A model generated the notes under the pieces. That model had not been told where the DNA came from. It did no database searches and worked only from the letters and a program-made list of their open reading frames with translations. Below are positions 12,801 to 22,691 of a DNA stretch of 64,000 bases, piece by piece. Position 1 is the first letter of the stretch; each line of letters starts with the position of its first letter. Origin of the DNA: Dorea formicigenerans. Its GTDB lineage: Bacteria; Bacillota; Clostridia; Lachnospirales; Lachnospiraceae. The position numbers and the translations under genes are program-made. The stretch covers positions 3,097,423 through 3,161,422 of the forward strand of contig NZ_CP102279.1 of the NCBI RefSeq assembly GCF_025150245.1. The letters run 5' to 3'.

Positions 12801-15087
12801 ATTTGAAGTTTATGCGGCAGAAGATATTTATACTGCCGATCATCAGGTAGATGCAGATGGACAGAGAACTCTGTATTTTGCAAAGGATGCACTGGTAGCA
12901 ACCGTCACAACGGATGCAGATGGTTATGCAACCGTAAAGAATCTTCCACTTGGCAGGTACTATGTTAAAGAGAAGAATGCACCGGACACTTATGTGTTAA
13001 ATACCGTGCCGGAAAATGTCGAATTTGCTTATGCGGATCAGGATACTGCAGTGATCGAGAAAGAAATCTCTGTCACAGATGAACGACAGAAAGTGTCGAT
13101 TACTGTCGAAAAACAGGATGCTGAGACAGGCAATACAGTAGCCGGAGCAGTGTTCGGTATTTACAATGCAAAAGACATTCAGACGAAAGATGGAAAAGTG
13201 ATCGTCAAAGCAGATACTCTTTTACAGGAAATGACTTCTGATGAAAAAGGTCAGGCAGCATATACGCTGGATCTTCCACTTGGAAGCTATTATGTAAAAG
13301 AATTGAAAGCACCGGATGGATTCATATCTTCTGATGAAATACTGAGATTTGATGCTTCTTATCAGGGTCAGGATGTACAGACGGTAACATTAAAATCCGT
13401 AAAGAAGAACCAGCCAACAACTGTTGAGATCATAAAATCAGATGCAACAACCGGTGTAGAATTGGATGGAGCTTATCTGAAAGTAACGGATAAAGATGGA
13501 AATGTGGTGGACAGCTGGACATCTTCCAAAGATGCACCGCATGTGATCAAATATCTGAAAGTGGGTGAGACTTATACCCTCCATGAAGAATTTGCACCGC
13601 ATGGTTATCTGGTAGCCAATGATGTGACATTCACAGTTAAAGATACCGGAGAGGTTCAGAAAGTGGAAATGAAGGACGAGGTACCGGTTGGTGAACTGAT
13701 CATCAACAAAAAGGGAGAATTCCTGGATTCTGTTACACTGGCCGATAAGGTCAAAGGTGTGGTGGAGCATATTTTCAACTATGTAACCGGAAAGCTGACA
13801 GATGTTACTTTTGAAGTATATGCTGAGGAAGATATTAAGGCTGCCGATGGCGTCAGTGACGATTACTATAAAAAGGATGAACTGATTGCAACAATAAAGA
13901 CAGATGAAACTGGTATTGCAAAACTGGAAAATCTTCCACTTGGTAAATACTATGTGAAAGAAACAGGAACTGCTTACGGTCATGTACTGGATGGTGAGAT
14001 CCGTCATGTAGATCTGACTTACGTGGATCAGAATACACCAGTTGTAGTCTATGACAAAGACTGGCAGAACAACCGCCAGAGAGTAGAAGTCAGTGTACTT
14101 AAGAAAGAAAAAGATTCTGACCGTACATTGGAAGGCGCTATCTTTGGATTATTTGCCAAAGAAGACATTAAGTCTGAGACAACAGGTAAAGTCCTGATTG
14201 AAGCCGATGAGATCATTGAACTGAAATCTACGGATGAAGAAGGAAAGATCACATTTGTTGCAGATCTTCCAATAGGAGCAACTTACTATGTAAAAGAGCT
14301 CTATGCACCGGACGGATTCGTAACCAACGATGAAGGAAAAGAATTTACGTTTGAGTATGCAGGTGAGGATCAGCCGACTGTAACCTATGATTTTACCTTT
14401 GAGAATCAGCCAACCGTTGTAGAATTTACCAAATCCAGTCTGACAACCGGAAAAGAACTTCCAGGATGTAAGCTGAAAGTGGTAGATGCCGATGGAAATA
14501 TCGTGGATGAATGGACTTCCGGTAAAGAAGCACATGTGATCCGTGAGCTGACTGTCGGAAAAGAATACGCACTGGTTGAAACAAAACCGGCCGATGGTTA
14601 TGTGACAGCTGAAAGCGTGAAGTTCACCATCAAAGATACTGCCGATGTGCAGAAAGTTGAGATGAAGGATGATGTGACGAAGGTGAAAATCTCCAAACAG
14701 GATATCGCCGGAAAAGAACTTCCGGGAGCAAAACTCACGATCCTTGATCAGGATGGAAAAGTTGTCGAAAGCTGGACCAGTACAGAGAAAGCACATTACA
14801 TCGAAATGCTTCCAATCGGAAAATACACTCTCCGTGAAGAAACAGCACCGGATGGCTATCTGGTTGCAAAAGATGTGGAATTCGAAGTAAAGGATACTAG
14901 TGAAGTACAGCATGTAACCATGGTAGATGAGGAAAAACCGGCAGAAAAGACACCGGAAGGTGGAAAACCTGTCAGTGATTCACCAAAGACTGGGGATAAC
15001 ACCAATCTGTGGCTGTGGTTTATGCTTCTCGGCATTGGTGCGACTGGTACAGGAGCCCTTGCATTTATGAGAAAAAAGAAACACTAA
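9826..15087 (+). CDS. Giant Cna-B repeat surface adhesin with sortase signal
   Basis: A 1753-residue cell-wall protein. Residues 1-32 form a signal peptide (basic, hydrophobic, AVAYA before SDD). An acidic Ser/Asp/Glu-rich spacer lies around residues 138-195. A thioester-domain-like module holds AYCVEPSKK with Cys288, but ITHLAAAYA has His346 where such domains normally have the partner Gln. From about residue 518 to 1705 there are roughly eleven Cna-B/SpaA-type domains, recognisable by GAVYGIY, GKYYVKE and APDGY phrases. These are expected to carry Lys-Asn isopeptide bonds. The C-terminus has SPKTG at 1719-1723, a membrane helix and a basic tail. It probably promotes cell contact for mating or host adhesion. 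Confidence 0.92.
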   Translation: MNVKKKARRVMSGLLTAVTVLSTVLSPAVAYASDDAGSVKKIPYYEEIKDQLDEDEVVTAKDYEIKVGDNFDVKSDYTGLTIQDDSKVKVTFQEAKDTDGNDFSTDYANSYKAVYYVEPQTTDHPTYQINRKIVVKEADQQKDSQSESSSDQDAGSSDKTETEDSEADSSTEETDAADTESKTELTEKEFDAEIEATEDQETVDPETGITLSEVMQEAVDQEVALADLEAGESITFDMPMMLASGETGTKSVTVTAGSWYYYADYGLGSYLTCPYYVKWGSINATAYCVEPSKKGPGNGTYTIQKLADGKTLAKVCYYGTKASDENGFFDEKHPDFPAGKRFIITHLAAAYANGSSDWASGTNATGKNLAMELYNYCVNMPDIPSVDMSFSESNVKAYVEGNSQRTSVITFKADKLQTVTFKLPKGVKLVNVTTGKTSAAGANVEISGGTKFYLTAPLNQAENVSATFSSKMKGSIDKEYSAYKITTGSGTQDLALVFGEGVGNEKYVDFKVTWTKECKVSIVKKDQDTGNALAGAVYGIYSDAACTKLITEMPATDQNGASQLTMEKTQEVVYLKEISVPTGYQIDTKSYNVTLAIGKTTTKNATDKRTNAKLNIAKQDTETGNEAQGDATLEGAVYGLYAREDIVHPDGRTGTIHKKDSLITSLTTDKNGEASVSDLYLGKYYLKELSAPVGYVLDPTEHDVDCTYEGATVPTVERTSVCKETVIKQPFQIIKAANNGKTDADLLQGVGFSAWLVSDLKVKADGSYDFDSARPVVLTADGQTEMFTDEKGYARSIPLPYGTYVVRETTSKHNYAPVDDFVVKITENHPDTPQTWRVLLDKEFKAKLKIIKKDAETQKSVLLANTEFKVYDLDNQKYVEQTTSYPKPTVHKSYFTNEEGYLVLPKNLKPGNYRIEEVTAPDGYTISKNYVTVAVDTDTAYLTDPVTGDAVIDVEYTNAPVKGQLKIYKQGEVLKGFDKDFQYEMAGLAGAEFEVYAAEDIYTADHQVDADGQRTLYFAKDALVATVTTDADGYATVKNLPLGRYYVKEKNAPDTYVLNTVPENVEFAYADQDTAVIEKEISVTDERQKVSITVEKQDAETGNTVAGAVFGIYNAKDIQTKDGKVIVKADTLLQEMTSDEKGQAAYTLDLPLGSYYVKELKAPDGFISSDEILRFDASYQGQDVQTVTLKSVKKNQPTTVEIIKSDATTGVELDGAYLKVTDKDGNVVDSWTSSKDAPHVIKYLKVGETYTLHEEFAPHGYLVANDVTFTVKDTGEVQKVEMKDEVPVGELIINKKGEFLDSVTLADKVKGVVEHIFNYVTGKLTDVTFEVYAEEDIKAADGVSDDYYKKDELIATIKTDETGIAKLENLPLGKYYVKETGTAYGHVLDGEIRHVDLTYVDQNTPVVVYDKDWQNNRQRVEVSVLKKEKDSDRTLEGAIFGLFAKEDIKSETTGKVLIEADEIIELKSTDEEGKITFVADLPIGATYYVKELYAPDGFVTNDEGKEFTFEYAGEDQPTVTYDFTFENQPTVVEFTKSSLTTGKELPGCKLKVVDADGNIVDEWTSGKEAHVIRELTVGKEYALVETKPADGYVTAESVKFTIKDTADVQKVEMKDDVTKVKISKQDIAGKELPGAKLTILDQDGKVVESWTSTEKAHYIEMLPIGKYTLREETAPDGYLVAKDVEFEVKDTSEVQHVTMVDEEKPAEKTPEGGKPVSDSPKTGDNTNLWLWFMLLGIGATGTGALAFMRKKKH

Positions 15088-15155
15088 TCAAATAAGAATG
15101 AGCGTTCATGGAAACCGAAAGGAATCTGTGGACGCTTTTTTAGATGGGAGAAACC

Positions 15156-15299
15156 ATGAGAAATATCATTATTTTTGTTGCTCTTCTGGGAGCAGCGGCA
15201 ATATTTACAGTTTTGTATTGTCTCATTGCTGCCGGAAGTCAGGCAGAGAAAAAACTGACAGAAATCATGAGAAAAGAGGAAGAACAGAATGAAGACTAA
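15156..15299 (+). CDS. 47-residue single-helix membrane protein
   Basis: Begins MRNIIIFVALLGAAA with one N-terminal membrane helix, followed by a charged tail rich in Lys and Glu. GATGGGAGAAACC precedes the ATG. Its last codons overlap the start of the next gene by 11 bases, which points to translational coupling. Similar small proteins sit in this place in Tn1549-like elements. A structural role in the transfer apparatus is possible but not shown. Confidence 0.6.
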   Translation: MRNIIIFVALLGAAAIFTVLYCLIAAGSQAEKKLTEIMRKEEEQNED

Positions 15300-15567
15300 T
15301 AAAGATCTGATCATAGAACCAAATGCAGCTATTGAGGGAAGAAAGTACAGCGAAGAAAAGCCATGGTCCTGCAAGTACTGTTACTGGTGGGGAGGCAAAA
15401 AGAAAGGCTGTAACTTGAAGCAGTGCCATTATCTGCTTCCTGAAAAGAAAAAAGTGGTAAAAACAACACCATGTGGTGGCTGTCCGTATGGAAAACATGT
15501 TCCATGCATCGGATATTGTATTGCCCGTCTTTATTCTGAGATGAAAGGAAAGAAAGGACGTGGGTAA
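15289..15567 (+). CDS. Cysteine-rich ICE protein
   Basis: A 92-residue soluble protein with about ten cysteines arranged as CKYCYW, GCNLKQC, CGGCPYG and PCIGYC, very likely binding zinc or an iron-sulfur centre. GAAAAGAGGAAGAAC precedes the ATG, which overlaps the preceding gene. It is followed directly by the PcfB-like gene, so it belongs to the conjugation operon. Related uncharacterised genes precede pcfB in Tn1549-type elements. No function is known. Confidence 0.7.
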   Translation: MKTNKDLIIEPNAAIEGRKYSEEKPWSCKYCYWWGGKKKGCNLKQCHYLLPEKKKVVKTTPCGGCPYGKHVPCIGYCIARLYSEMKGKKGRG

Positions 15568-16131
15568 TTGCAGGAAGAAGTAAATCAGAAAGTGATCAGC
15601 CTGAGCATCCAGGGAGTCAAGATCACTGCCAGTGTGCTAAAAGCAGCCCTTCGGAAGTTCCTGGAAATGGACAACCGTAGGAAACAGAAAGCAACGCGGG
15701 TGAAAATGGCTGAAAAGACCGGACGGGCCCAGGAGAAAGGAAGGGAAAAAGCCCGAAAAAAGATTGAAAAGAAAAAGCCACATGGAAAGCAGACCATCAA
15801 GCAGCTGAATGCACAGGGAGTACAGCTTTCCAACATAAAGATCACAGATGAAAATATCAAATCCTTTGACCGTGTGGCAAGAAAGTACGGGATTGATTAC
15901 AGCCTGAAAAAAGAAGTCGGTGCGGATCCACCAAAATATCTGGTCTTCTTTAAGGCTAAAGATGTGGATGTGATGACAGCGGCTTTCCGGGAATATGCCG
16001 GAGTAGAACTGAAAAAGAAACAGGTGAAGAAACCATCTGTCAGAAAGAAACTGCAGAAATCTGTAGAAAGAAAAGCAAAGCACCGCCAGCGTGTGAAGCA
16101 GAGACAAAAATCCAGAGGTCAGGAACGATGA
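15568..16131 (+). CDS. PcfB-family conjugation protein (DUF3801)
   Basis: A 187-residue protein resembling PcfB of pCF10, an accessory protein that helps present the relaxase-DNA complex to the VirD4 coupling protein. The N-terminal part is helical, the middle is extremely basic, and the domain with GVQLSNIKITDENIKSFDRVARKYGIDY precedes a second basic tail. The start is a TTG at 15568, directly after the previous stop, with AAAGGACG upstream. The stop overlaps the VirD4 start by four bases, a classic coupling. Family assignment is good; the exact action is from pCF10 work. Confidence 0.82.
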   Translation: MQEEVNQKVISLSIQGVKITASVLKAALRKFLEMDNRRKQKATRVKMAEKTGRAQEKGREKARKKIEKKKPHGKQTIKQLNAQGVQLSNIKITDENIKSFDRVARKYGIDYSLKKEVGADPPKYLVFFKAKDVDVMTAAFREYAGVELKKKQVKKPSVRKKLQKSVERKAKHRQRVKQRQKSRGQER

Positions 16132-17942
16132 TCCGGGAAAAATTACAGAAGATCCAGATCAAACGGCTGGTGATCTTAAATCTCCCATATTTCTTTATCT
16201 TCTATGTAGCAGATAAAGGATCCTGGCTGTACCGGCATTGCCTGGGAGAAAGCATGGTCCAGAGACTTGGCGTGATGTTAGTCAATTTTCGACTGGCATT
16301 TTTAAGCTGGCTGCCAAGTATCGCTTTGCAGGACCTTACAGTAGGTGTTCTGGTTGCAAGTGCATTAAAGCTGGTGGTCTACTATCGTTCTAAAAACGCA
16401 AAGAAGTTCCGGCAGGGTGTGGAGTATGGATCTGCAAGATGGGGAAATAGAAAAGATATCGAACCCTTCATGGATCCGGTTTTTGAAAACAATGTCATCC
16501 TCACAGAAACGGAACGTCTGACCATGAACAGCCGCCCAAAAGCCCCAAAGTATGCCAGAAATAAGAATGTGATCGTCATCGGTGGTTCCGGATCCGGTAA
16601 GACAAGATTCTATGTAAAACCCAACCTTATGCAGATGACGGACCACGTGTCCTATGTGGTCACCGATCCAAAAGGAACGATCATCGTTGAATGCGGGAAG
16701 ATGCTGGTAAATGGAGGATACCGGATCAAGGTATTGAATACGATCAATTTTAAAAAGTCCATGCATTACAATCCGTTCCATTATATCCGGAGTGAAAAAG
16801 ACATCTTAAAGCTGGTCAATACCATTATCGCAAATACCAAGGGTGAGGGCGAAAAATCAACGGAAGATTTCTGGGTCAAGGCCGAACGTCTTTTGTATTC
16901 TGCACTGATCGGATACATCTGGTATGAGGCACCAGAGGAAGAACAGAACTTTTCTACTTTGCTGGAATTTATCAATGCCAGTGAGACCAGAGAGGATGAT
17001 GAAGAATTTAAAAATGCAGTGGATGAATTGTTTGAAGAACTGGAAGCAGAAAATCCGGAACACTTTGCAGTAAGGCAATATCGCAAGTACAAGCTTGCTG
17101 CCGGCAAAACTGCAAAATCGATTTTGATTTCCTGTGGTGCCAGACTTGCACCATTTGATATTCAGGAACTAAGAGAAATCATGTCCTATGACGAGATGGA
17201 ACTGGATATGATCGGCGATCAGCGAACAGCCATGTTTGTCATCATCAGTGATACAGATGACACATTCAACTTTGTGGTAGCAATCATGTACACCCAGCTC
17301 TTTAACCTGCTTTGTGATAAAGCGGATGATGAGCATGGAGGCAGGCTTCCCTATCATGTACGACTGCTTCTTGATGAGTTCAGCAATATCGGACAGATCC
17401 CAAAATTCGACAAATTGATTGCTACGATCCGAAGCAGGGAAATCTCCGCTTCTATCATTCTGCAGTCACAATCTCAGCTGAAAACAATCTATAAGGATGC
17501 GGCTGAGACGATCACGGGTAACTGTGACACCGTTCTTTTCCTGGGTGGAAAGGAAAGTTCCACACTGAAAGAAATATCAGAAACCCTGGGAAAGGAAACC
17601 ATAGATCTTTACAACACATCAGACACCAGAGGCAGCAACCGGTCCTATGGGCTGAATTATCAAAAGACTGGAAAAGAACTGATGAGTAGAGATGAGCTGG
17701 CGGTCATGGATGGAGAAAAATGTATCTTACAGCTTCGTGGAGTCCGGCCGTTTTTAAGCAACAAATATGACATCACAAAGCATAAACGGTACAAGGAACT
17801 TGCCGATTATGATAAGAAAAATGCTTTTGATGTTGAAAAATATCTGAATCATAATCTGACATTTTCAAAAGATACAGAGTTTGAGATGTTTCGGATTGAT
17901 GTAACAGAGGATGAAATAAGACAAATTGAAATCATTAATTAA
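16128..17942 (+). CDS. VirD4/TraG-type coupling protein
   Basis: A 604-residue membrane-anchored ATPase that brings the relaxase-DNA complex to the type IV secretion channel. Two hydrophobic segments lie in the first 90 residues. Walker A is GGSGSGKTR near residues 151-159, and a Walker B-like LLLDEFSNIG lies near residue 414, followed by the usual IATIRSREISASIILQSQSQL. The length and order match TcpA/VirD4 proteins of Tn1549-like ICEs. It starts within the end of the PcfB gene. The downstream transport genes are separated from it by an inserted regulator cassette at 17.9-18.7 kb. Confidence 0.95.
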   Translation: MIREKLQKIQIKRLVILNLPYFFIFYVADKGSWLYRHCLGESMVQRLGVMLVNFRLAFLSWLPSIALQDLTVGVLVASALKLVVYYRSKNAKKFRQGVEYGSARWGNRKDIEPFMDPVFENNVILTETERLTMNSRPKAPKYARNKNVIVIGGSGSGKTRFYVKPNLMQMTDHVSYVVTDPKGTIIVECGKMLVNGGYRIKVLNTINFKKSMHYNPFHYIRSEKDILKLVNTIIANTKGEGEKSTEDFWVKAERLLYSALIGYIWYEAPEEEQNFSTLLEFINASETREDDEEFKNAVDELFEELEAENPEHFAVRQYRKYKLAAGKTAKSILISCGARLAPFDIQELREIMSYDEMELDMIGDQRTAMFVIISDTDDTFNFVVAIMYTQLFNLLCDKADDEHGGRLPYHVRLLLDEFSNIGQIPKFDKLIATIRSREISASIILQSQSQLKTIYKDAAETITGNCDTVLFLGGKESSTLKEISETLGKETIDLYNTSDTRGSNRSYGLNYQKTGKELMSRDELAVMDGEKCILQLRGVRPFLSNKYDITKHKRYKELADYDKKNAFDVEKYLNHNLTFSKDTEFEMFRIDVTEDEIRQIEIIN

Positions 17943-18045
17943 GAAAATTTCTATGTTACCAAAGTGGAAACATAGGAAAACCATGCTGGTTCTTTCTTTT
18001 TTAATGGTATCATTATATGATATGAATGAAAGAGAGGTAAGAAGT

Positions 18046-18498
18046 ATGGCTTTAAATGATAACATTAAAAAAATCAGAGAAGAAAAAAAATATACACAAC
18101 AACAACTTGCCGATAAACTGTACGTATCACGACAAACTGTATGCCGATGGGAGAACGGTTCAAGATGTCCAGATCTAATTACAGCAAAAAAGTTAGCAAT
18201 GGAGCTTGGAGTCACTTTGGATGAACTTATATCTGATGAAGATATCACAGATATTCAATCAAAATATGGAATATGGAAGTTTGATAGGGTAAAAGAAAGG
18301 GAAAAAATTCAGATGATGCAAAAAAGGATCCTAGATTTTATAGAGATTATAGGAGGTATATTTTTAGCAATTTCTTTGTTGCTAAGAGTTCAATTTGATA
18401 TGAAAGTACCAGCGTGGATTACGATAATATGTATTTTAATAGTGACAGTAACATTTTTGTTTAATTTTGTGCTGGCAAAAAAATTGGATAGGAAGTAA
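18046..18498 (+). CDS. XRE regulator with membrane anchor
   Basis: A 150-residue protein with an N-terminal helix-turn-helix (QQQLADKLYVSRQTVCRWE, about residues 16-35) and two membrane helices in the last 60 residues. AGAGAGG precedes the ATG at 18046; the open frame runs upstream to 17926 over the end of virD4 but without a start signal. The DNA is visibly richer in A/T than the conjugation genes on either side. It has its own terminator and interrupts an otherwise conserved operon, so it looks like a late insertion. What it senses or controls is unknown. Confidence 0.8.
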   Translation: MALNDNIKKIREEKKYTQQQLADKLYVSRQTVCRWENGSRCPDLITAKKLAMELGVTLDELISDEDITDIQSKYGIWKFDRVKEREKIQMMQKRILDFIEIIGGIFLAISLLLRVQFDMKVPAWITIICILIVTVTFLFNFVLAKKLDRK

Positions 18499-18535
18499 AA
18501 AATTTCAAGTATTTGTAAAAAGAACAAAAAGCGTT

Positions 18536-18577
18536 AGAGCATGTAGAAAAATCCATCTATATGCTCTATTTTTTTTA
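18536..18577 (+). terminator. Rho-independent terminator
   Basis: AGAGCATGTAGA pairs with TCTATATGCTCT across a short A-rich loop, followed by a run of eight T residues. It would end the XRE transcript before the Maff2 gene, so the downstream secretion genes need readthrough or their own promoter. Confidence 0.85.
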
Positions 18578-18701
18578 TGTTTTTTTCAAGAAAGAAATCT
18601 AAAAGTAGGAAGAAAGGAGAAAAAAGTGAAGATAAAGATAAGATCGCCTTGCAGATAAAACAGGTAAAAAAAGGTCTGAATAAAAGGGAAAGGAGTAGAG
18701 C

Positions 18702-18734
18702 CAAACGCTTACAGACCATAAGAAAAAGCGTTTG
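18702..18734 (+). promoter_or_regulatory. Hairpin between ribosome-binding site and Maff2 start
   Basis: CAAACGCTT (18702-18710) pairs perfectly with AAGCGTTTG (18726-18734). It separates a strong GGAAAGGAGTAGAG (ends about 18700) from the expected ATG at 18750. The next gene has the same GGAGTAGAG placed normally before its ATG, so the hairpin segment looks inserted or used for control. Confidence 0.55.
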
Positions 18735-18749
18735 TTCACACATTTGATT

Positions 18750-18965
18750 ATGGCTTTTTTTAGCAGTGCAATCAATATCCTTCAGACACTGGTCGTTGCA
18801 ATCGGTGCCGGCCTTGGTGTCTGGGGCGTAATCAACCTGATGGAAGGTTATGGAAACGACAACCCGGGTGCAAAATCCCAGGGAATTAAGCAGCTGATGA
18901 GCGGTGGTGGTGTTATCCTGATTGGAACACAGCTAATCCCGCTTCTGAGTGGATTATTTGGTTAA
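18750..18965 (+). CDS. Maff2 family membrane protein
   Basis: A 71-residue, two-helix protein beginning MAFFSSAINILQTL, the hallmark of the Maff2 family found in Tn1549-like elements. Residues GVWGVINLMEGYGNDNPGAKSQGIKQLMSGGG connect the helices. It is a likely VirB2/VirB3-like inner component of the transfer channel, inferred from position before the VirB6-like gene. A TTG at 18732 in frame could extend it by six residues. The start is uncertain because the only good ribosome-binding site lies about 50 bases upstream beyond a hairpin. Confidence 0.85.
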   Translation: MAFFSSAINILQTLVVAIGAGLGVWGVINLMEGYGNDNPGAKSQGIKQLMSGGGVILIGTQLIPLLSGLFG

Positions 18966-18984
18966 AAGAAAGGAGTAGAGATCC

Positions 18985-19857
18985 ATGTTCAGTCAGATTT
19001 TTGATGCGATTGAGGAATGGATGAGGGAACTCTTAACCGGGATGATCACTTCCAACCTGGATACGATGTTTACTGATGTCAATCAAAAGACTGGTGAGAT
19101 CGCTACCCAGGTTGGACAGACCCCGCAAGGGTGGAACGGCAGCATATTCAGTATGATCCGGAACTTATCGGATTCCGTGATCATGCCGATCGCAGGTATT
19201 ATTATCACACTCGTACTCTGCTACGAATTGATTTCTATGCTGACCGAGCGCAACAACATGCATGATATTGATACCTGGATGTTTTTCAAGTACTTCGTAA
19301 AAATGTGGATCGCGGTTTATCTGGTGAGTAACACATTTACGATCACAATGGCGGTATTCGATGTGGGCCAGCACGTAGTTAATTCTGCAGCTGGTGTTAT
19401 CAGCGGAAGTACCGCCATTGATATTTCTTCGGCATTGACGGATCTTTCCGCAACCCTGGAAAGTATGGAAATCGGAGAACTTGTTGTATTGGCGCTGGAA
19501 ACCCTTATCGTTGGCTTCTGTATGAGAATCCTGTCTGTACTGATCACAGTGATCATGTATGGACGTATGATAGAGATTTACCTATATACCTCAGTTGCGC
19601 CGATTCCATTCGCAACTATGAGTAACAGAGAATGGGGACAGATCGGCACGAATTATTTCAGAGGACTCTTTGCCCTGGCTTTCCAGGCATTTCTGATGAT
19701 GGTATGCGTTGCAATCTATGCAGTGCTTGTTGCAGGTATCCAGTATTCAGATAATCTGAGTTCTTCATTATTTGGCGTTATGGCTTACACGGTGATCTTA
19801 TGTTACAGCCTCTTTAAGACGGCATCCTTAAGTAAGTCGATATTTAACGCGCACTAA
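18985..19857 (+). CDS. VirB6/TrbL-like channel protein
   Basis: A 290-residue polytopic protein with six or so hydrophobic helices after an amphipathic N-terminus (MFSQIFDAIEEWMRELL). It matches the size and position of the VirB6/TrbL-like protein of Tn1549-type ICEs, which forms part of the membrane pore. AAAGGAGTAGAGATCC precedes the ATG. It is 19 bases downstream of the Maff2 gene and 22 bases upstream of the PrgI gene, and so is co-transcribed. No catalytic motifs are expected in this family. Confidence 0.85.
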   Translation: MFSQIFDAIEEWMRELLTGMITSNLDTMFTDVNQKTGEIATQVGQTPQGWNGSIFSMIRNLSDSVIMPIAGIIITLVLCYELISMLTERNNMHDIDTWMFFKYFVKMWIAVYLVSNTFTITMAVFDVGQHVVNSAAGVISGSTAIDISSALTDLSATLESMEIGELVVLALETLIVGFCMRILSVLITVIMYGRMIEIYLYTSVAPIPFATMSNREWGQIGTNYFRGLFALAFQAFLMMVCVAIYAVLVAGIQYSDNLSSSLFGVMAYTVILCYSLFKTASLSKSIFNAH

Positions 19858-19879
19858 ATTACAGGAAGGAGTGAAAATC

Positions 19880-20269
19880 ATGGCATATGTCAGCGTACCG
19901 AAAGATTTAACGAAGGTAAAGAATAAAGTAGCATTTAACCTGACCAAAAGACAGCTGATCTGTATCGGGATAGGTGCTGCAATGGGAATTCCAAGCTATT
20001 TTCTCTTGCGTAATGTGATGGGAAACAGTAATGCAGCAACGGTCATGGTGCTTTTAATGTTACCGGCATTTTTATTTGCCATGTACGAAAAAGACGGGAT
20101 GCATCTGGAAGATGTTCTGATGCATATGATCCGGGTGAAGTTTCTTCGTCCGCCCGTCAGAAAATATGAAACTGAAAACTATTATGAGACAGATCCGGAA
20201 CAGATCAGACAGTCTCCGGATGCAGGAAAACCGAAAGGAGGAAAAACGGTTGCGAAAAAAGAAAAATAA
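19880..20269 (+). CDS. PrgI family conjugation membrane protein
   Basis: A 129-residue protein with the PrgI-family start AYVSVPKDLTKVKNKVAFNLTKRQL, two central membrane helices, and a charged tail. PrgI is a VirB3-like partner of the VirB4 ATPase. The ATG at 19880 is chosen because GGAAGGA lies nine bases upstream; a GTG at 19871 is too close to it. The 3' end overlaps the start of the VirB4 gene by 20 bases in another frame, as expected for subunits made in step. Confidence 0.9.
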   Translation: MAYVSVPKDLTKVKNKVAFNLTKRQLICIGIGAAMGIPSYFLLRNVMGNSNAATVMVLLMLPAFLFAMYEKDGMHLEDVLMHMIRVKFLRPPVRKYETENYYETDPEQIRQSPDAGKPKGGKTVAKKEK

Positions 20270-22691
20270 GAAAACTGTCGCAGATACCGGATACAAAAAA
20301 GTAGACAGAAAAGAGAAAAAGAAAAAAGAAAAGCAGGAAGAGAAACGTAGGCAGAAAAAACTGTCCGTCCAGCAGTCGATCGCTTATAAGGAAATGGGAA
20401 GAGATGGAATCTGCAGGGTACAGGGAAAAACTTATTCTAAGTGTATCCGCTTTTATGACATCAACTACCAGCTGGCTCAGAATGAAGATAAAAATGCAAT
20501 CTTTGAAAACTGGTGTGATTTCCTCAATTACTTTGATGCCAGTATCCATTTTCAGCTGAGCTTTATCAATCATAAGAGCAGCATGAAGGAGTTTGAGCAG
20601 GTGATCCAGATCCGGCCACAGGAGGATGCTTTTGATGATGTTCGCATGGAATATGCCAAGATGCTGAAACAGCAGCTGGCGAAAGGGAATAATGGACTGG
20701 TGAAATCAAAATATATCACCTTTTCCATCGAAGCGGATAATATCCGGGAAGCAAAGCCAAAGCTGGAACGTATTGAGTCGGATATCCTGAACAATTTCAA
20801 GATCCTTGGAGTTCCGGCTTATCCATTGAATGGGGTGGAAAGACTGCAGATTTTATATGAGACTTTCAATCCAGATAACATGACAGACTTCCAGTTTGAT
20901 TATGGTTCCATGATCCGTACAGGACTCAATACCAAAGATTATGTGGCACCGACCAGTTTTGTATTCAAGGACAGAAATACATTCCGCATGGGAAATACCA
21001 TCGGGGCAGTCTCTTATTTGCAGATCCTGGCACCGGAGCTTACAGATAAGATGCTTGCAGAATTTCTGGATATTGATAAGAACCTGATCGTCAACCTGCA
21101 TGTTCAGTCTGTGGATCAGATGAAAGCAATCAAGCTTGTAAAAAGCAAGGTTACGGATATCAACAGGATGAAAATTGAAGAACAGAAAAAAGCAGTCCGG
21201 GCCGGATACGATATGGATATCATTCCATCGGATCTGAACACGTATGGCGGAGAAGCTAAGCGTCTGTTAGAAGACCTGCAGTCACGAAATGAGCGTATGT
21301 TCCTTGTAACAGCGCTCTTTTTAAATACAGCAAAGACCAAACAGGCACTGGACAATGCCATCTTCCAGACTGCCGGAATTGCACAGAAATACAACTGTGT
21401 ACTGAAACGTCTGGACTATCAGCAGGAAGAAGGACTGATGAGCAGTGTTCCGCTGGGAGTCAATCATATCCCCATCAAACGTGCACTGACCACGACCAGC
21501 ACTGCTATCTTCGTACCGTTTACCACTCAGGAACTTTTTATGGCAGGAGAATCCCTATATTACGGATTAAATGCACTCAGCAACAACATGATCATGGTGG
21601 ACCGCAAGAAACTGAAAAATCCGAATGGCCTGATCCTTGGTACTCCTGGATCCGGTAAATCCTTTGCTGCCAAAAGAGAGATCACCAATGCTTTCTTTGT
21701 TACGAAGGATGACATTATCATCGGAGATCCGGAAGGTGAATATTATCCGCTGGTCCATGCACTTGGCGGACAGGTAGTACACATCTCACCAACCAGTAAG
21801 GATTATATTAATCCGATGGATATCAATATGGATTATTCCGATGATGACAATCCACTTGGTGTAAAATCCGATTTTGTCCTGTCCTTATGTGAGCTGATCA
21901 TGGGAAGCAGGGATGGTATTGAAGCAGAGGAAAAATCAGTAATCGACCGTTGTCTTCCACTGGTGTATCAGAAGTACTTTGCAGATCCAAAACCGGAAAA
22001 TATGCCGGTCCTTGGTGACCTGTATGACTGCCTCAGAAAGCAGAAAGAACCCCAGGCCCAGAGAATTGCAACAGCACTGGAAATCTATGTAAATGGATCA
22101 CTGAAAGTATTCAACCATAGAACCAATGTGGAACTGAATAACCGTATTGTCTGCTTTGATATTAAGGAACTTGGAAAGCAGCTGAAGAAAATCGGAATGC
22201 TCATCGTCCAGGATCAGGTATGGAACAGAGTTACGATCAACCGTGGCATCAAATCTACCAGGTACTATATCGATGAATTCCACCTTCTGCTCAAAGAAGA
22301 ACAGACAGCAGCTTATTCTGTAGAAATCTGGAAGAGATTCAGAAAATGGGGTGGTATTCCAAGTGGTATCACCCAGAATATCAAAGATCTTCTTGCCAGC
22401 AGGGAAATTGAAAATATCTTTGAGAACAGTGATTTTATCCTGATGCTGAACCAGGCTGCAGGTGACAGACAGATCCTTGCAAAACAGTTGAATATTTCCC
22501 CATATCAGTTGTCTTATGTGACGAATTCCAGGGAAGGAGAAGGACTTCTTTTCTATGGAACAACAATTATTCCATTTAAGGACAAGTTCGATAAGAACTT
22601 GAAGCTGTACAGTTTGATGACTACAAAACCGGAAGAAGTTGAAAAACGAGAGAAAGAAATGGAGGCGGAAAAGCATGAAGGAAATCGATAA
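20250..22691 (+). CDS. VirB4-like secretion ATPase
   Basis: An 813-residue ATPase that powers assembly and substrate transport of the secretion system. Walker A (GTPGSGKS) is near residue 463 and Walker B (YYIDEFH) near residue 671, with a highly basic N-terminal tail. The start is taken as TTG at 20250 because AAAGGAGG lies exactly eight bases before it, inside the PrgI gene; the frame is open to 20166 but has no other start signal. Length and domain order are normal for the TraC/VirB4 group. It is followed by an overlapping small gene. Confidence 0.93.
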   Translation: MRKKKNKKTVADTGYKKVDRKEKKKKEKQEEKRRQKKLSVQQSIAYKEMGRDGICRVQGKTYSKCIRFYDINYQLAQNEDKNAIFENWCDFLNYFDASIHFQLSFINHKSSMKEFEQVIQIRPQEDAFDDVRMEYAKMLKQQLAKGNNGLVKSKYITFSIEADNIREAKPKLERIESDILNNFKILGVPAYPLNGVERLQILYETFNPDNMTDFQFDYGSMIRTGLNTKDYVAPTSFVFKDRNTFRMGNTIGAVSYLQILAPELTDKMLAEFLDIDKNLIVNLHVQSVDQMKAIKLVKSKVTDINRMKIEEQKKAVRAGYDMDIIPSDLNTYGGEAKRLLEDLQSRNERMFLVTALFLNTAKTKQALDNAIFQTAGIAQKYNCVLKRLDYQQEEGLMSSVPLGVNHIPIKRALTTTSTAIFVPFTTQELFMAGESLYYGLNALSNNMIMVDRKKLKNPNGLILGTPGSGKSFAAKREITNAFFVTKDDIIIGDPEGEYYPLVHALGGQVVHISPTSKDYINPMDINMDYSDDDNPLGVKSDFVLSLCELIMGSRDGIEAEEKSVIDRCLPLVYQKYFADPKPENMPVLGDLYDCLRKQKEPQAQRIATALEIYVNGSLKVFNHRTNVELNNRIVCFDIKELGKQLKKIGMLIVQDQVWNRVTINRGIKSTRYYIDEFHLLLKEEQTAAYSVEIWKRFRKWGGIPSGITQNIKDLLASREIENIFENSDFILMLNQAAGDRQILAKQLNISPYQLSYVTNSREGEGLLFYGTTIIPFKDKFDKNLKLYSLMTTKPEEVEKREKEMEAEKHEGNR

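Follow-up and report, generated by a model that had tools for sequence, protein, structure and literature searches.

Organization of the virD4–Maff2 region

The DNA analysed here, which we call the window, is a stretch of 64,000 nucleotides from Dorea formicigenerans (contig NZ_CP102279.1, positions 3,097,423 to 3,161,422 of the forward strand); the genome is one contig of 3.19 Mb. In the window, a virD4-like coupling protein gene ends at position 17942 and the Maff2 gene starts at 18750. The interval between these two genes opens with a palindrome, which is followed by an HTH gene, a terminator, and a micro-ORF, and then by a purine-rich Shine-Dalgarno (SD) sequence and a hairpin. The features are listed here, with the basis of each assignment in parentheses.

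16128-17942, + strand: virD4-like coupling protein gene, CD1115 family (NCBIfam NF045973, E=5e-173)
17953-18498, + strand: HTH cassette, gene together with its operator/promoter region (similarity to other copies starts at 17953)
17954-17972, no strand assigned: palindrome TGTTACCAAAGTGGAAACA, candidate operator of the HTH regulator (pattern TGTTNCCANNNTGGNAACA)
18046-18498, + strand: HTH (XRE/HTH_3) gene, 150 aa, with two C-terminal hydrophobic segments (Pfam HTH_3, hydropathy)
18535-18576, + strand: intrinsic terminator of the element, stem 18535-18568 plus U-tract (folding; present in loci L089 and L237 without the HTH gene)
18614-18619, + strand: SD AAGGAG of the leader micro-ORF (sequence)
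18626-18658, + strand: putative leader micro-ORF MKIKIRSPCR, GTG start, IRSP motif at 18638-18649 (counterparts, motif statistics, codon diversity)
18673-18678, + strand: 5' arm GGTCTG of helix S1, partner of 18712-18717, possibly forming an H-type pseudoknot with S2 (alignment)
18690-18695, + strand: distal SD AAGGAG for Maff2, inside segment CTGAATAANAGGGAAAGGAG that is common to the window type (54 nt from the ATG)
18702-18710, + strand: 5' arm CAAACGCTT of helix S2, the putative bridging stem (folding, alignment)
18712-18717, + strand: 3' arm CAGACC of helix S1 (alignment)
18726-18734, + strand: 3' arm AAGCGTTTG of helix S2 (folding, alignment)
18750-18965, + strand: Maff2 gene, 71 aa (Pfam PF12750, E=4e-42)

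The Maff2 product scored 142.5 bits against the Pfam PF12750 profile (cut-off 27), which assigns it to this family. The preliminary description of this DNA had reported an A/T-rich XRE gene with hydrophobic segments between virD4 and Maff2, and this gene is indeed present at 18046-18498: its product contains an HTH_3 domain (E=3e-18, 65.9 bits, curated cut-off 23), and its G+C content is 31%, compared with 42.5% for virD4 and 45% for Maff2 plus the next gene. The leader stretch at 18501-18749, which lies outside the cassette, is equally A/T-rich (30.5% G+C).

When positions 15000-21000 of the window were searched against Rfam 15, no match reached the gathering score, and the two matches with E<=1 were far under their cut-offs. 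The same search on 20 relatives returned no leader family and only three group II intron matches. In L002, L067, and L090, the 3' ends of group II introns (RF00029) are located upstream of Maff2, at positions that probably fall within virD4.

The main text of PMC12904643 describes the Maff2 family (PF12750) of integrative and conjugative elements (ICEs) of gut Bacillota as an insertion site for resistance-carrying IMEs, including those with tetracycline resistance, and calls its function unknown. Another Maff2 of the D. formicigenerans genome (L030) is apparently split into two parts ∼11 kb apart (C1:586674-586826 and C1:597581-597661), as are those of several relatives. Maff2 genes are also found two or three in tandem or within ∼1 kb of each other (G598:C159, G297:C16, G352:C1, and G491:C12).

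The preliminary description had regarded virD4 and Maff2 as normally adjacent or nearly so, which does not hold for the relatives. The gap between the two genes was obtained from the clusters with virD4 in reach, which are 92 of the 107 discovery clusters and 49 of the 64 held-out clusters (defined below). Its median is 245 nt in the 92 non-redundant clusters (<=60 nt in 7, >=350 nt in 37, and >=700 nt in 18) and 122 nt in the held-out set, where 7 of 49 gaps are <=60 nt and long gaps are missed, as ∼800 nt upstream were fetched. Additional sequence between virD4 and Maff2 is common among relatives, and some of the gaps contain other genes of >=100 codons. From inspection by eye, we take these to include an HTH gene (L140) and genes for single-strand-binding-like (L024, L186), nitroreductase-like (L070), and alpha/beta-hydrolase-like (L068) proteins. 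The 3' ends of virD4 vary from relative to relative. Truncation of virD4 by the cassette insertion was considered and dropped, as the virD4 C-termini of the cassette-free relatives examined are similar in length.

Comparison with related elements, which the preliminary description had proposed as a check, identified four cassette-free loci. Two of these, L033 and L087, encode a virD4 protein 96% identical to that of the window, have no HTH gene and no terminator, and keep the distal SD, the hairpin, and the spacing of the window. In the other two, L089 and L237, the HTH gene is absent and the same terminator, micro-ORF, and hairpin design are found. This comparison supports the view that the HTH cassette was truly inserted between virD4 and Maff2. 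Because loci without the cassette keep the hairpin or the terminator, we assign both to the element and not to the cassette. The proposal that the terminator is the cassette's own is ruled out by L089 and L237, and the view of cassette, terminator, and hairpin as one new control unit finds no support, since both the terminator and the hairpin occur without the cassette. For the hairpin, the relatives with the same arrangement that the preliminary description had said would speak against its reading do exist.

The terminator stem has 13 pairs (18535-18568) and is followed by a U-tract; the 81-nt stretch that holds it folds with -21 kcal/mol, and none of 200 shuffles was as good. A closely similar terminator (GCGTTAGAGCATATAG...CTATATGCTCTATTTTTT) precedes a small gene in L036, L038, L044, and L046, and this terminator type is common to other mobile contexts. 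The small gene resembles tnpW.

Stems between a distant Shine-Dalgarno sequence and the Maff2 start

The hairpin before Maff2 has a perfect 9-bp stem (CAAACGCTT/AAGCGTTTG, 18702-18710/18726-18734), a 15-nt loop, and a stem energy of -15.4 kcal/mol. The GGAG upstream of it ends at 18695, 54 nt from the Maff2 ATG (18750), which places this SD beyond usable distance, and no match to a proximal SD was found 18 to 3 nt before the window ATG. The separation of SD and ATG by a perfect hairpin is thus present as had been described, but it does not derive from the insertion, as L033 and L087 keep the hairpin. It had also been noted that the next gene has the same GAAAGGAGTAGAG at normal distance, and the copy at 18688-18700 is in fact repeated at 18968-18980. 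The hairpin stretch, when folded alone, stood out only slightly (z -1.86), and 9 of 200 shuffles did equally well. The functional case for the hairpin comes from comparison with relatives and not from the folding energy of the window itself.

Among relatives, a recurring layout was observed that consists of an SD, a 5' arm, a loop, a 3' arm, ∼10 nt, and the ATG. A scan for the best stem anywhere often chose terminators and picked an unrelated stem for the window, so the test was limited to stems that start just after the SD. A bridging stem was required to have >=7 ungapped pairs with E<=-12, to start its 5' arm <=8 nt from an SD-like 5-mer, and to end its 3' arm 8-18 nt ahead of the ATG; an SD was counted as proximal if it gave a regular-expression match 18 to 3 nt before the ATG. 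From the discovery set, 167 of 171 loci were used (two window duplicates and two loci without a start codon or with <150 nt upstream were dropped), and these formed 107 clusters.

In these 107 non-redundant clusters, by a test framed after examples had been read, a bridging stem was present in 24 of the 31 without a proximal SD compared with 1 of the 76 with one (p=1.2e-16). This association was stable over three SD definitions and four energy cut-offs (p 5e-18 to 1.5e-10). Among the seven clusters that had neither a proximal SD nor a bridging stem, L067, L090, L129, and L199 have, by eye, weaker or bulged arms near the same place, and L098, L102, and L103 have none.

The held-out set consisted of 100 stretches fetched once the rule was fixed plus 20 loci that had been obtained just earlier and were first analysed together with them. 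Of these 120 loci, 115 were used (3 had no start and 2 were short), and removal of regions similar to the discovery set left 64 clusters. Here, the bridging stem was found in 7 of 15 clusters without a proximal SD and in 1 of 49 with one (p=7e-5), a smaller and weaker effect than in the discovery set. Three of the eight no-SD clusters that failed (L304, L323, and L359) have a stem at 11-12 nt with an energy between -10.6 and -11.9 kcal/mol, and the remaining five showed no such stem under the same scan.

As a control, other ORF starts from the same loci were scanned (n=639), and a stem was found at 13 of the 409 without a proximal SD and at 3 of the 230 with one. In 20 shuffles of the last 60 nt of the 107 clusters, 7-22 stems (E<=-12) were obtained, with 0-7 at 9-12 nt, compared with 30 and 17 observed. 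When distances of 0-39 nt were allowed, 16 of the 25 no-SD stems ended 9-12 nt before the ATG. Both sets together, at 8-18 nt and E<=-10.5, contain 38 distinct arm pairs, of which 30 end 9-12 nt before the ATG; these pairs are partly dependent, with six sharing CCGGAATC and four sharing ACCAA. The split Maff2 of the D. formicigenerans genome noted above (L030) has a stem with unrelated sequence.

Loci of the window's own type were aligned, and this alignment holds 6 distinct sequences only. In it, the stems vary, but the SD-bearing segment CTGAATAANAGGGAAAGGAG hardly does. The structure made up of S1 and S2 is paired in 97.7% of cells, the broken pairs being one S1 pair in L237 and one S2 pair in L091. 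Changes on both sides were seen in 4 of the 15 pairs, a level that 1 of 500 shuffles attained, and neither the 500 shuffles nor any slid version reached the covariation score; further pair types were not above shuffles (96 of 500 as high). Helix S1 contributes 6 pairs, with 97% of cells paired and one pair with a change on both sides. Together, S1 (GGTCTG with CAGACC) and S2 would form an H-type pseudoknot, which we regard as possible. A search for CTGAATAANAGGGAAAGGAG in 397 genomes gave one further exact place (L230), and there was no exact match in viral contigs; two-mismatch matches were assumed to be mostly chance.

Since stems of this kind are rare with a proximal SD and frequent without one, the hairpin is more likely to enable initiation than to block it. 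From these comparisons, we think it probable that Maff2 has a split ribosome-binding site in which this hairpin serves as the bridging stem. In such a site, the folded stem would loop out the intervening RNA, the 30S subunit could thereby engage the distal SD and the ATG of Maff2 at once, and stem folding would promote Maff2 synthesis. The micro-ORF MKIKIRSPCR, as part of the same leader, may make bridging conditional on its own translation.

A precedent for a bridging stem is provided by the T4 genes 25 and 38, for which the available text of PMC3014915 reports a stem that cuts the SD–AUG spacing from 27 to 11 nt and from 22 to 5 nt, respectively, and stem-destabilising mutations that lower initiation, on the basis of mutation, reporter, and probing evidence. 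As in these genes, the SD before Maff2 is too distant from the start codon, and the intervening stem would shorten the functional spacing. Unlike the T4 genes, the stems described here lie in Bacillota integrative and conjugative elements before a conjugation gene, their arms differ between lineages, a leader micro-ORF is often present, and their loops are mostly 54-119 nt (30 of 38 stems; 15 nt in the window), with some enclosing a terminator. The spacing in the window also differs, because 21 nt between GGAG and ATG stay unpaired with the strict S2 stem (6 before the stem and 15 after), compared with the 11 and 5 nt in T4, and a value near 10 is reached only with a bulged extension: the minimum-energy fold prolongs the S2 helix, with a bulge, to 18739, 10 nt from the ATG. 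All stems of the window type stop 14-15 nt short of the ATG and so miss the peak at 9-12 nt. A split ribosome-binding site is likewise described for E. coli thrS in the available text of PMC3936740, which, unlike the window, is an autoregulated synthetase message.

The leader micro-ORF

Counterparts of MKIKIRSPCR are present in relatives as MKERIRAPCYY (L033, L087), MKMKIRSPCKENR (L089), and MEIRIRSPTRGYGFMA (L091). A loose first scan for the leader motif mixed real and chance matches (44 of 151 forward, 5 reverse, shuffles 5-13) and was replaced by the strict motif [IV]R[AS]x0-1P in a forward frame, with 30 sets of dinucleotide shuffles. The IR(A/S)P motif was found in 41 of 171 clusters when both sets were taken together. 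In the discovery set, it occurred in 34 of 107 clusters forward and 6 reverse (shuffle mean 3.1, maximum 7), and in the held-out set, where the signal is weak, in 7 of 64 forward and 2 reverse (shuffle mean 1.1, maximum 6).

Examples of the motif include MRIRAPP, MRIRSPP, MVRIRSPT, and MRMRIRSPT, and there are longer ones with PPIRAEP. An exact RAPP is found in L027, L278, and L289 and RSPP in L123, L136, and L284, and many relatives have RAPT, RSPT, or RAEP. Codon use within the motif covers all six codons for Arg, all four for Pro, all four for Ala, and all six for Ser; because the synonymous codons vary, the peptide, and not the DNA, seems to be conserved. The micro-ORF looks translated, and it is a candidate arrest or sensor leader. 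A ACAACTGAATA segment follows the leader micro-ORF in L017, L086, L107, L162, L165, L167, and L284, and CTGAATA recurs also in the window type.

For the RAPP/RAGP arrest peptides ApdA, ApdP, ApcA, and SecM, the available texts of PMC10951233 and PMC12992588 report that Arg is essential, that Ser is a partial substitute for Ala, and that Pro or Gly comes next in the cases known so far. The micro-ORF shares with these peptides the Arg-(Ala/Ser)-Pro core and the position of a short ORF upstream of another gene, and it differs from them in that the window has RSPC in a peptide of 10 residues with no secretion domain. Since no Pro or Gly follows the Pro of RSPC, the micro-ORF was not classified as a RAPP-type arrest peptide.

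With a slightly wider motif, a leader was detected in 18 of 37 bridged clusters compared with 25 of 134 others (p=5e-4), and in 28 of 43 leader loci a terminator separates the leader from Maff2. In ribosome-mediated transcription attenuators, such as the msrD and erm leaders, a micro-ORF is likewise followed by a terminator hairpin before the regulated gene. One tentative possibility, compatible with a bridging stem, is that the leader acts as a ribosome-controlled switch, in which translation of the micro-ORF, with stalling at the motif, would pick either the terminator or alternative folds, or else the bridging stem. The enrichment of the motif over the reverse strand and shuffles and its diverse codons agree with such a switch, yet the held-out signal is weak, with one shuffle set giving 6 compared with the 7 observed, and the motif is absent from 19 of the 37 bridged clusters. 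Terminators are more frequent with the motif (33 of 43 clusters) than without it (70 of 128, p=0.012) but are common in both. An alternative pairing of the 5' arm was detected in 11 of 30 long loops (loop-shuffle p<=0.05), although 6 of these 11 come from one related group with CCGGAATC arms. The window itself fits a switch poorly, as its terminator (18535-18576) precedes the micro-ORF, its 15-nt loop is too short for an alternative partner, and its RSPC is neither RAPP nor RAGP.

In L005, L010, L028, and L030, the 5' arm AGCCGGAATC could take either of two partners, the 3' arm preceding Maff2 or CCGGCTTTT within the loop. This dual pairing is a possible terminator/bridge alternative in these loci.

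Other readings of the locus and significance of the leader

The preliminary description had proposed that readthrough and RNA folding might place channel assembly, and with it secretion, under a new control. Folding between SD and start is conserved and probably matters, but the likely role of the hairpin is opposite to that of a barrier. An inhibitory or delaying hairpin, which would keep the SD from Maff2 until melted and place channel assembly under this new control, could account for a linear SD–ATG distance of 54 nt, far from optimal, and for a stem as stable as -15.4 kcal/mol. We nevertheless consider it unlikely, because stems of this type occur in 1 of 76 clusters with a proximal SD and in 24 of 31 without one, because the ATG and usually also the preceding 9-12 nt are outside the stem, and because a fixed distance to the ATG would be needless for a barrier.

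The HTH cassette was also compared with its other copies. The DNA similarity starts at one base, 17953, in both of them, and extends to 18467 in the copy in G270 (76%) and to 18422 as a DNA match in the copy elsewhere in the D. formicigenerans genome (72%); the best 2 candidates per genome were scored. Close homologues of the HTH protein (E<=1e-20, best 9 candidates per genome) were found in at least 3 of 397 family genomes, that of D. formicigenerans included. The 19-bp palindrome TGTTNCCANNNTGGNAACA has a single occurrence in the 64-kb window with 2 mismatches allowed, and it was found in 11 of 360 loci, which amount to 5 distinct places (the window, the own-genome copy, G270, G285 (L259), and L041). 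In G285, it sits upstream of an HTH homologue with only 47% protein identity (L259), and by our own reading the palindrome in L041 is a remnant, where the cassette's upstream region alone is left. The D. formicigenerans genome has two exact palindrome sites, one before each HTH paralogue, and 5 more with one mismatch. The region at 17940-18050 of the window, upstream of the HTH gene, has a strong RNA fold (z -7.35, 0 of 200 shuffles as good), which is partly due to the palindrome.

The simplest reading of these sequences is that the HTH protein is probably autoregulated via its own palindrome. The cassette is an ordinary passenger, cargo DNA whose insertion placed it upstream of the terminator of the element; if it acts on Maff2, it would do so indirectly. 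Direct control of Maff2 by the cassette, through binding near 17954 or by halting virD4 transcription before Maff2, could make use of the conserved palindrome upstream of the HTH gene and the strong terminator after it. We regard this as quite improbable, given that the window has the palindrome before the HTH gene only and none before Maff2, that the terminator is found without the cassette in L089 and L237, and that a close homologue in at least 3 of 397 family genomes argues against a general regulator of these elements. Translation of Maff2 by coupling from the 56-codon frame at 18577-18747, which ends 2 nt before the Maff2 ATG and would make the hairpin incidental, is very improbable, as this frame begins in the terminator U-tract, has no Pfam or NCBIfam match at E<=0.1, and is unlikely to be conserved in view of the indels between the leaders of relatives.

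We regard a bridging stem as the probable role of the hairpin. Among the matches listed in a literature search whose coverage largely excludes subscription papers and preprints, none deals with this Maff2 leader; again among those listed, the term "Maff2" apparently retrieved mostly MAFF culture-collection strains, and the main text of PMC12904643 has no match for "leader" or "attenuat". The split-site precedents found, as far as their available texts go, are single genes (T4 25 and 38 and E. coli thrS); here, the bridging stem is apparently a standing solution for one gene in many ICEs. With 38 distinct stems and loops of up to 119 nt, the geometry of initiation from a distal SD becomes directly testable. 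The conserved micro-ORF likewise offers a cheap and concrete test of whether conjugation in gut Bacillota answers ribosome-targeting signals.

A more speculative proposal, of which we are rather doubtful, is a two-part leader, in which the IR(A/S)(x)P micro-ORF would stall in response to a drug or the state of the cell and the fast-evolving stem would bridge the SD in one ribosome state only. If true, such a leader would couple translation stress in the donor to the building of the conjugation channel, in gut elements that are able to carry resistance.
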